A stretch of 64,000 bases of DNA from NCBI RefSeq assembly GCF_028368855.1, contig NZ_JAQNCY010000001.1, positions 434,001 through 498,000 of the forward strand. The letters run 5' to 3'. The notes beneath the pieces are model-generated. The model saw only the letters and a program-made list of their open reading frames with translations, was not told the origin of the DNA and did not search any database. Below, one piece after another: positions 26,093 through 31,611 of the stretch. Position 1 is the stretch's first letter. Each line of letters opens with the position of its first letter. The DNA is from Leisingera sp. SS27. Lineage in GTDB: Bacteria; Pseudomonadota; Alphaproteobacteria; Rhodobacterales; Rhodobacteraceae. The position numbers and the translations under genes were made by a program.

Positions 26093-26545
26093 ATGTCTGG
26101 CGATAGTGATCTGATCAAGCTGTATTCCTCGCGCATCTTGGCGCTGGCCGCCGACATTCCGCATCTGGACCGGCTGCAGGCACCGGATGCCACGGTCAAG
26201 AAGCGCTCGCCGCTGTGCGGCTCTGCCGTGACGGTCGACATCAAGGTAGGGGACGGCCGGATCACGGATTTCGGCCAGGACGTGAAGGCCTGTGCCCTGG
26301 GTCAGGCCTCTGCCGCGGTGACTGGTGCCAACGTGATCGGACGGACGCTGCAGGAAGTGGAAACCGCCCGCGATCAGTTGAAGGCCATGCTGACCCAAGA
26401 CGGACCGGTCCCTGATGCGCCGTTTGACGGGCTGGAAGTTCTGCAGCCTGCAAAGGAATTCAAGAACCGCCATGCCTCGATCATGCTCGCGCTGGAGGCA
26501 ACGCTGGAAGCCATGCAGGCCGCAGCCAAGGAGCAGTGCGCCTAA
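26093..26545 (+). CDS. IscU/NifU-N-like iron-sulfur scaffold protein
   Basis: Protein of 150 residues resembling the NifU N-terminal/IscU fold, which binds transient Fe-S clusters. The three potential cluster cysteines are in KKRSPLCGSAV, DVKACALGQA and the C-terminal KEQCA, though the spacing differs from classic IscU. I chose ATG 26093 because family members begin with a short MSG.. sequence; ATG 26072 seven codons upstream is possible. It is divergent from hisI, with no isc/suf genes nearby. Confidence 0.75.
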   Translation: MSGDSDLIKLYSSRILALAADIPHLDRLQAPDATVKKRSPLCGSAVTVDIKVGDGRITDFGQDVKACALGQASAAVTGANVIGRTLQEVETARDQLKAMLTQDGPVPDAPFDGLEVLQPAKEFKNRHASIMLALEATLEAMQAAAKEQCA

Positions 26546-26841
26546 GGGCGCCGCCCGTTACCATTGCACAATTACCAATGTGTGCTGCCCGTTGCTTGAG
26601 CGGGCGATGCGTGCTTCTCCCTCCTTCTGACATGAAAAAACCGCCGCACATCCGGGCAGATGGCGGCGGCAGTCATGCTCTGCGGTGCGGGACCCGGGCG
26701 GGCCAGGCAGGATCTTGAGGCAATTCAGTCAAAGATCGGGCCGAGGGGGATCGGGACAGGCGGTTGATCCCCAAAAAACAGTCCGGGACAGGAAAGGGCC
26801 GGCCCGGCACAGCAGTGGCATTCAGGAAAACGGTAAGGGGA
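26546..26841. other. Intergenic stretch with minus-strand terminator
   Basis: I see no gene. The right part is the 3' untranslated region of the 40-residue protein at 26842-26964. The terminator at 26635-26669 would leave a transcript tail of about 170 bases after that protein's stop codon, long enough to hold regulatory RNA, but no conserved structure can be named. Confidence 0.5.
26635..26669 (-). terminator. Rho-independent terminator of the SOS-linked small gene
   Basis: On the minus strand the stem CCGCCGCC..ATC / GAT..GCGGCGG with loop TGCCCG runs into TTTTTT. It is the first good terminator after ligA-recG and the small gene. Confidence 0.75.
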
Positions 26842-26964
26842 TCAGAACAGCCCCGGCAGGTGCAGCGCCGCCACAAGCATCACCATCAGCGAGGCCGCGC
26901 CGATGGCGTCCTGCAGCAGGGTCGAATGGGCATTTTGAATGGTGGTCTTGATCTGTGCAATCAT
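26842..26964 (-). CDS. 40-residue membrane miniprotein downstream of recG
   Basis: Short open frame of 40 residues, start MIAQIKTTIQNAHSTL and end AALHLPGLF. The first 17 residues are polar and can form an amphipathic helix; residues about 18-38 (DAIGAASLMVMLVAAL) make one membrane helix. A strong AGGAGG ribosome-binding site sits at the correct distance before the ATG, which supports it as real. It lies 149 bases after recG on the same strand. A LexA-type box lies about 85 bases upstream (27048-27062). This combination, a single-helix small membrane protein after an SOS box, resembles the Caulobacter division inhibitor SidA, but there is no obvious sequence identity. Confidence 0.65.
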   Translation of the reverse strand: MIAQIKTTIQNAHSTLLQDAIGAASLMVMLVAALHLPGLF

Positions 26965-27047
26965 GGCTCGGGCCTCCTCCAGTCTGTGATGCTGCTCTCT
27001 GGCAATCTTGTTGCCTCTTTGTTCTCATTTTCAGGCGCGCCTGTAAA

Positions 27048-27082
27048 GAACTTTTTGAGAACATTTGCGAACATAGGGGAAC
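27048..27082 (-). promoter_or_regulatory. LexA-type SOS box in a phased GAAC series
   Basis: GAAC-n7-GAAC (27048-27062) is the reverse form of the GTTC-n7-GTTC LexA box established for alphaproteobacteria. Two further GAACs follow at 27069 and 27079, at 10-base steps, with another at 27092. This lies between recG and the small protein gene, whose start codon is 84 bases away on the minus strand. Confidence 0.6.
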
Positions 27083-27112
27083 ACTAAGGCGGAACAGACG
27101 CCTAACGGCTGC

Positions 27113-31611
<4,499 letters not shown>

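Follow-up and report, generated by a model that had tools for sequence, protein, structure and literature searches.

The window analysed here, a stretch of 64,000 nucleotides from Leisingera sp. SS27, contains a 40-codon gene beside recG that is conserved across the Rhodobacteraceae together with a LexA-like operator. By analogy, the best reading of the encoded miniprotein, to which we assign a probability of roughly 0.4, is an SOS division checkpoint similar to SidA of Caulobacter. The features of the locus are listed below, with the evidence for each in brackets.

26842..26964, minus strand: gene of 40 codons whose product is predicted to be a membrane protein with one helix (dN/dS, family presence, AlphaFold2 model)
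26973..26978, minus strand: AGGAGG ribosome-binding site, 8 nt 5' of the ATG (direct sequence reading)
27010..27024, minus strand: box B, GAACAAAGAGGCAAC, LexA-like at 7 of the 8 bases of its half-sites and in inverted orientation with respect to box A (relatives, LexA matrix)
27042..27047, minus strand: strongly conserved TTTACA, 17 bp ahead of box B, a possible -35 element (relatives)
27048..27062, minus strand: box A, GTTCTCAAAAAGTTC, the box of an earlier sequence-only reading (sequence and relatives)
27069..27072, minus strand: GTTC half-site, third of the phased series, at 10 bp from the outer half of box A (93/104 genomes)
27079..27082, minus strand: fourth phased GTTC half-site, less conserved (46/104 genomes)
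27113..29203, minus strand: recG, upstream on the same strand, named in the earlier reading and used here as a synteny marker

A small gene conserved beside recG

The sequence-only reading had described a 40-codon frame at 26842-26964 on the minus strand, 84 bases from a LexA-type box, with an AGGAGG, and all of these are present, the AGGAGG at 26973-26978. Across 20 Leisingera loci, 31 of the 45 variable sites of this frame fall on third codon positions and dN/dS is approximately 0.07, which rules out a non-coding frame. Judged by these substitution patterns, the frame is a real protein-coding gene under purifying selection. Its position is equally stable. Upstream on the same strand, recG was found in 49 of 50 loci; the lone exception is a fragment at the end of a contig. 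In a further set of 60 loci, 58 had the RecG C-terminus. The gap between the two genes had a median of 108 bases in the 52 loci where it was measured.

At the genus level, the miniprotein gene was present in all 21 genomes, as a single copy in 20 of them, while G016 had two matches located at contig ends. Five Leisingera records encode the identical 40-residue protein. In the family as a whole, a search with the single sequence (E up to 1) matched 339 of 394 Rhodobacteraceae genomes and a 66-sequence profile (E up to 0.01) matched 343, counts that, like those for the operator, are not independent since the genomes of a family share kinship. The sequence-only reading had proposed a search for recG-adjacent homologues with the box conserved, and had allowed that the frame might be missing from relatives; the 343 profile matches speak for its conservation, and gene, box and spacing are kept across the Rhodobacteraceae. 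One record titled Nocardioides marinus (JAHVJD010000001.1, L298) carries this Rhodobacteraceae locus at 85% protein identity, and its title looks mislabelled.

In a draw of 385 genomes at the level of the class, a 27-sequence profile (A1) matched eight, of which five belong to the same family and three are weak matches (E 0.001-0.006); this profile and draw would overlook strongly diverged members. As far as the profile sees, the miniprotein is specific to Rhodobacteraceae. No match for it was found in NCBIfam, PHROGs or PDB sequences, and Pfam had none for the window's own miniprotein. Among the 66 family members, Pfam returned two weak helix-turn-helix families, which we attribute to chance as they concerned two and one members at E 0.024 or worse. 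The gene is a conserved small gene outside the coverage of the protein family libraries searched.

Architecture of the operator

The GAAC-n7-GAAC at 27048-27062 and the further GAACs at 27069, 27079 and 27092 noted earlier from the sequence all lie where they had been placed. The second, inverted box at 27010-27024 was absent from that description. In 49 upstream regions, read in the direction of the gene, the phased GTTC half-sites are followed by TTTACA, then by a stretch that varies in sequence but not in length, and then by TGAGAACAAANNNGCAACA. Relative to an anchor set by a GTTCTT-like pattern, GTTC occurs at the anchor itself in 103 of 104 genomes (largely by construction) and at distances of 11, 21 and 31 bases ahead of it in 102, 93 and 46 genomes, respectively. 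Three half-sites are phased at 10/11 bp, and GTTC-n6-GTTC-n7-GTTC is present in 94 of the 104 genomes. The outermost of the GTTCs noted earlier, at 27092-27095, is kept in just 14 of 102 genomes. In one genome (L030), the half-sites are spaced at 10/10 and an n7 pair is absent from this position.

The start of box B lies exactly 27 bases past the anchor in 100 of 104 genomes, and an exact n7 GTTC pair lies at most 140 bp upstream of the miniprotein gene in 102 of 104. When one mismatch at most was allowed, the combination GTTCTTTAC-N16-GAGAACAAA was found in 244 of 394 family genomes, against four of 394 for a reversed control pattern, and a reading of the rows gave one occurrence per positive genome. 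Box A was exact in 41 of 42 further loci selected by their operator. Among 146 genomes, the second half of box B reads CAAC in 128, and is conserved as such, and GAAC in seven (L240, L271, L282, L374, L380, L387 and L394), where box B is an exact GAAC-n7-GAAC. A consensus sigma-70 promoter was looked for at the miniprotein gene and none was found. The operator also contains an inverted repeat (TGTTCTCA/TGAGAACA) that was considered as a sign of a structured RNA, but which two inverted LexA-like boxes produce anyway. No Rfam RNA matched in 26500-27400, an absence that is weak evidence.

The operator reaches beyond the genomes in which the protein is recognised. Neither protein search matched G076 or G399, yet both of these, the two examined, have the operator and, behind it, a diverged hydrophobic frame of 38-40 residues. 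A diverged hydrophobic frame is also found in G171, which was missed by the single sequence and weakly matched by the profile (E 0.003). In each of the 42 operator-selected loci, a frame of 38-45 residues began at 55-94 bases past the anchor, in a search restricted to 34-50 residues and offsets from 55. These loci suggest that the operator can outlast recognisable protein similarity.

The GAAC-n7-GAAC pattern by itself is not significant. Three copies were observed in the window where 1.55 were expected, a number reached by 17 of 100 shuffles, and the genome-wide count was 145 versus 114 for the reversed control pattern. What raises the box above chance is the conservation of box, spacing and frame beside recG across the family, which rules out a chance box. 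In a search for three phased GTTCs in 10 genomes, four of the stretches outside the miniprotein locus were viewed; the G132 lexA promoter was among them, and the remaining three share no gene. A stretch of four GTTC half-sites phased at 11/11/10 bp was seen at L205:3215-3250 (G000:C12:302214-302249), some 550 bp before a 919-codon frame; its phasing is similar, but it is not the miniprotein operator.

Similarity of the operator to LexA sites

We compared the operator to a LexA matrix built from 60 recA/lexA boxes of 30 genomes, none of them from the miniprotein locus. The promoters of recA and lexA served as a positive control, and each had a GAAC-n7-GAAC box in 30 of 30 genomes. Scores of at least 10 bits were reached in 94 of 104 miniprotein upstream regions, compared to 10 of 963 windows taken at random from the same Leisingera genome, which included parts of the miniprotein locus, and 12 of 886 random windows from which the miniprotein, recA and lexA loci were left out. 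None of 48 windows downstream of the miniprotein gene reached this score. A harder control than random windows came from dinucleotide shuffles of the 104 regions taken together, which reached 10 bits in about 3% and 14 bits in 0.4%, versus 58% of the real regions at 14. The best score of the analysed stretch itself, 10.8, was equalled by seven of the 963 and 10 of the 886 random windows, so taken singly its evidence is modest.

The best match was box B in 71 of the 104 genomes and box A in 19. With a matrix from lexA boxes only, box B had a median of 4.1 bits versus 17.1 for recA boxes, and with a matrix from recA boxes only, 12.5 versus 18.3 for lexA boxes. The operator boxes thus score far above random windows yet below true recA/lexA boxes. 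A full LexA-type n7 pair was present in just seven of 104 upstream regions, and box A does not have the A after the first GAAC that is found in 58 of the 60 recA/lexA boxes. The recA promoters have a similar two-part layout, in which the GAACAAGAGGYGAACA box is preceded by an inverted element resembling ATGTTCTC-n5-GATC. A third phased half-site occurs in three of 30 lexA promoters (L134, L137 and L139) and is absent from the other 27 and from all 30 recA promoters. The LexA-type operator of the sequence-only reading is thus supported by the matrix statistics and the likeness to recA promoters, while the box it had named, box A, is a poorer match than box B. Considering these patterns, we regard LexA control of the miniprotein gene as probable.

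A regulator other than LexA, so far without a name, might instead read the GTTC repeats phased at 10 bp, in which case the gene would answer another signal, for example the state of the envelope. The phased half-sites, including the 10/10 spacing of L030, the single occurrence of the operator combination per positive genome and the conservation of box B as CAAC are all consistent with this. The enrichment for the LexA matrix, the recA-like promoter layout, the exact LexA-type boxes of several genomes and the third half-site in some lexA promoters argue against it, and we consider it doubtful. Two named regulators were rejected as readers of the repeats. No n6 or n7 pair of GTTC or GAAC was found in the 420 bases before mraZ in 14 of 14 located loci, which speaks against MraZ; at a fifteenth mraZ locus (L222), one n7 pair is visible by eye. 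The motif of CenR, TGA-N8-TGA, differs (PMC9275681).

Several LexA-like sites were seen elsewhere. Most of the 30 recA promoters (L102-L131), inspected by eye, carry an inverted element resembling ATGTTCTC-n5-GATC, possibly a second LexA element. In the Leisingera genome itself, LexA-like boxes of 19.3 and 13.5 bits lie just before frames that by eye are mmcB-like (L168:1534) and imuB-like (L167:1502). Boxes of 15.5 bits at L162:1587 (G000:C30:10386) and 18.8 bits at L069:1501 (C1:546722) are followed by frames that by eye are ferredoxin-like and corrinoid-protein-like, respectively, and these may be further SOS genes.

A predicted single membrane helix with a conserved face

The single membrane helix proposed earlier was recovered by AlphaFold2 as one helix of residues 2-39 (mean pLDDT 88.2, pTM 0.47; five models from 76.7 to 88.2), a confident model that does not amount to a function, and hydropathy has its maximum of 2.39 at residues 20-34. 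The mean net charge is +1.2 before D19 (0 or -1 in 17 of 66 sequences) and 0 after it in all 66. Because of this charge distribution, an N-in topology is likely. The 66 aligned sequences all have D19, G22, L34 and P37, while some diverged members do not have D19 or P37. Conservation along the helix is periodic, with a best angle of 100 degrees and a column-permutation p of 0.005 for residues 3-37; of the five stretches tried, the others gave 0.010 (15-37), 0.012 (13-35), 0.039 (18-37) and 0.063 (3-17). One face of the helix is more conserved, which suggests contact with a specific membrane protein partner rather than a generic pore.

TisB and DinQ of Escherichia coli are SOS-induced short hydrophobic peptides, toxins with antisense RNAs. 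A membrane-active peptide of this kind, induced by the SOS response, would lower the membrane potential and slow growth with no block of the divisome. The miniprotein is alike in size class, in its one hydrophobic helix and in its LexA-like operator. TisB and DinQ are not known as family-wide core genes, whereas the miniprotein gene is present family-wide at a fixed place beside recG, with one match per genome in nearly all of the genus (20/21). The four residues invariant in the alignment (not in all diverged members) and the conserved face suggest a specific partner, and the missing Rfam match is weak evidence against an antisense RNA. We therefore find a TisB- or DinQ-like role unlikely.

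Comparison with known division inhibitors

In Caulobacter, LexA recognises GTTC-n7-GTTC, and SidA is an SOS-induced inner-membrane protein of 29 residues that inhibits division through FtsW (PMC4211646); a Caulobacter lexA mutant filaments through SidA (PMC13384398). Like SidA, the miniprotein is a very small alphaproteobacterial protein, predicted to lie in the membrane, and the LexA site of Caulobacter, GTTC-n7-GTTC, is also present before its gene. By description, it differs in having 40 rather than 29 residues and in lying beside recG. DidA, also of Caulobacter, likewise is a small single-pass membrane protein with a damage setting, but it has 71 residues and is induced by DriD independently of SOS (PMC4211646), whereas the miniprotein operator looks LexA-like. 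SOS-induced division inhibitors of another phylum, again compared by description, are YneA of Bacillus subtilis and SosA of Staphylococcus aureus (PMC13396833, PMC6851548).

It is possible that the miniprotein works like SidA, as the sequence-only reading had proposed. Its gene would then be a one-gene unit of the Rhodobacteraceae SOS regulon, held off by LexA dimers bound to boxes A and B around the promoter. Upon DNA damage, RecA would trigger the self-cleavage of LexA and the 40-residue protein would be made. The protein would insert as one membrane helix, with its short, mostly positive N-terminus in the cytoplasm. Its conserved face would pair with another protein in the membrane, most probably a component of the septal machinery (FtsW/FtsI/FtsN class). 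Division would be delayed until repair is finished. Provided that LexA binds the operator, we judge inhibition of division by the miniprotein to be slightly favoured.

The miniprotein might instead be under LexA control but serve the SOS response in a different way, for instance by aiding repair at the membrane or in connection with gene transfer agents. This would fit recG as the constant neighbour and the part that LexA has in controlling the gene transfer agent of R. capsulatus (PMC6363796), but we think it quite improbable, since the miniprotein has its own conserved operator after recG, suggesting regulation separate from recG, and a neighbourhood by itself tells little about mechanism. 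The predicted LexA sites of Dinoroseobacter shibae, as far as the available text goes, name other genes (PMC6473078). Among the matches listed in an open-licence literature search, there was no SOS division inhibitor in Rhodobacterales. In work by Kuchinski from 2016, a lexA mutant of Rhodobacter capsulatus was reportedly filamentous, which would fit a so far unnamed division inhibitor.

Implications for the Rhodobacteraceae

We tentatively propose an SOS division checkpoint common to the Rhodobacteraceae, formed by an unnamed miniprotein family with an operator able to outlast protein similarity; this wider claim may well not hold. If it is true, two inverted LexA boxes with phased half-sites would represent a cooperative type of LexA promoter, of which recA and some lexA promoters have a part as well. 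Should LexA not bind, this operator would point to an unnamed regulator. Present across the family, mostly in one copy, and preceded by a defined operator, the miniprotein gene is a testable candidate for the arrest of division after DNA damage in Rhodobacterales.
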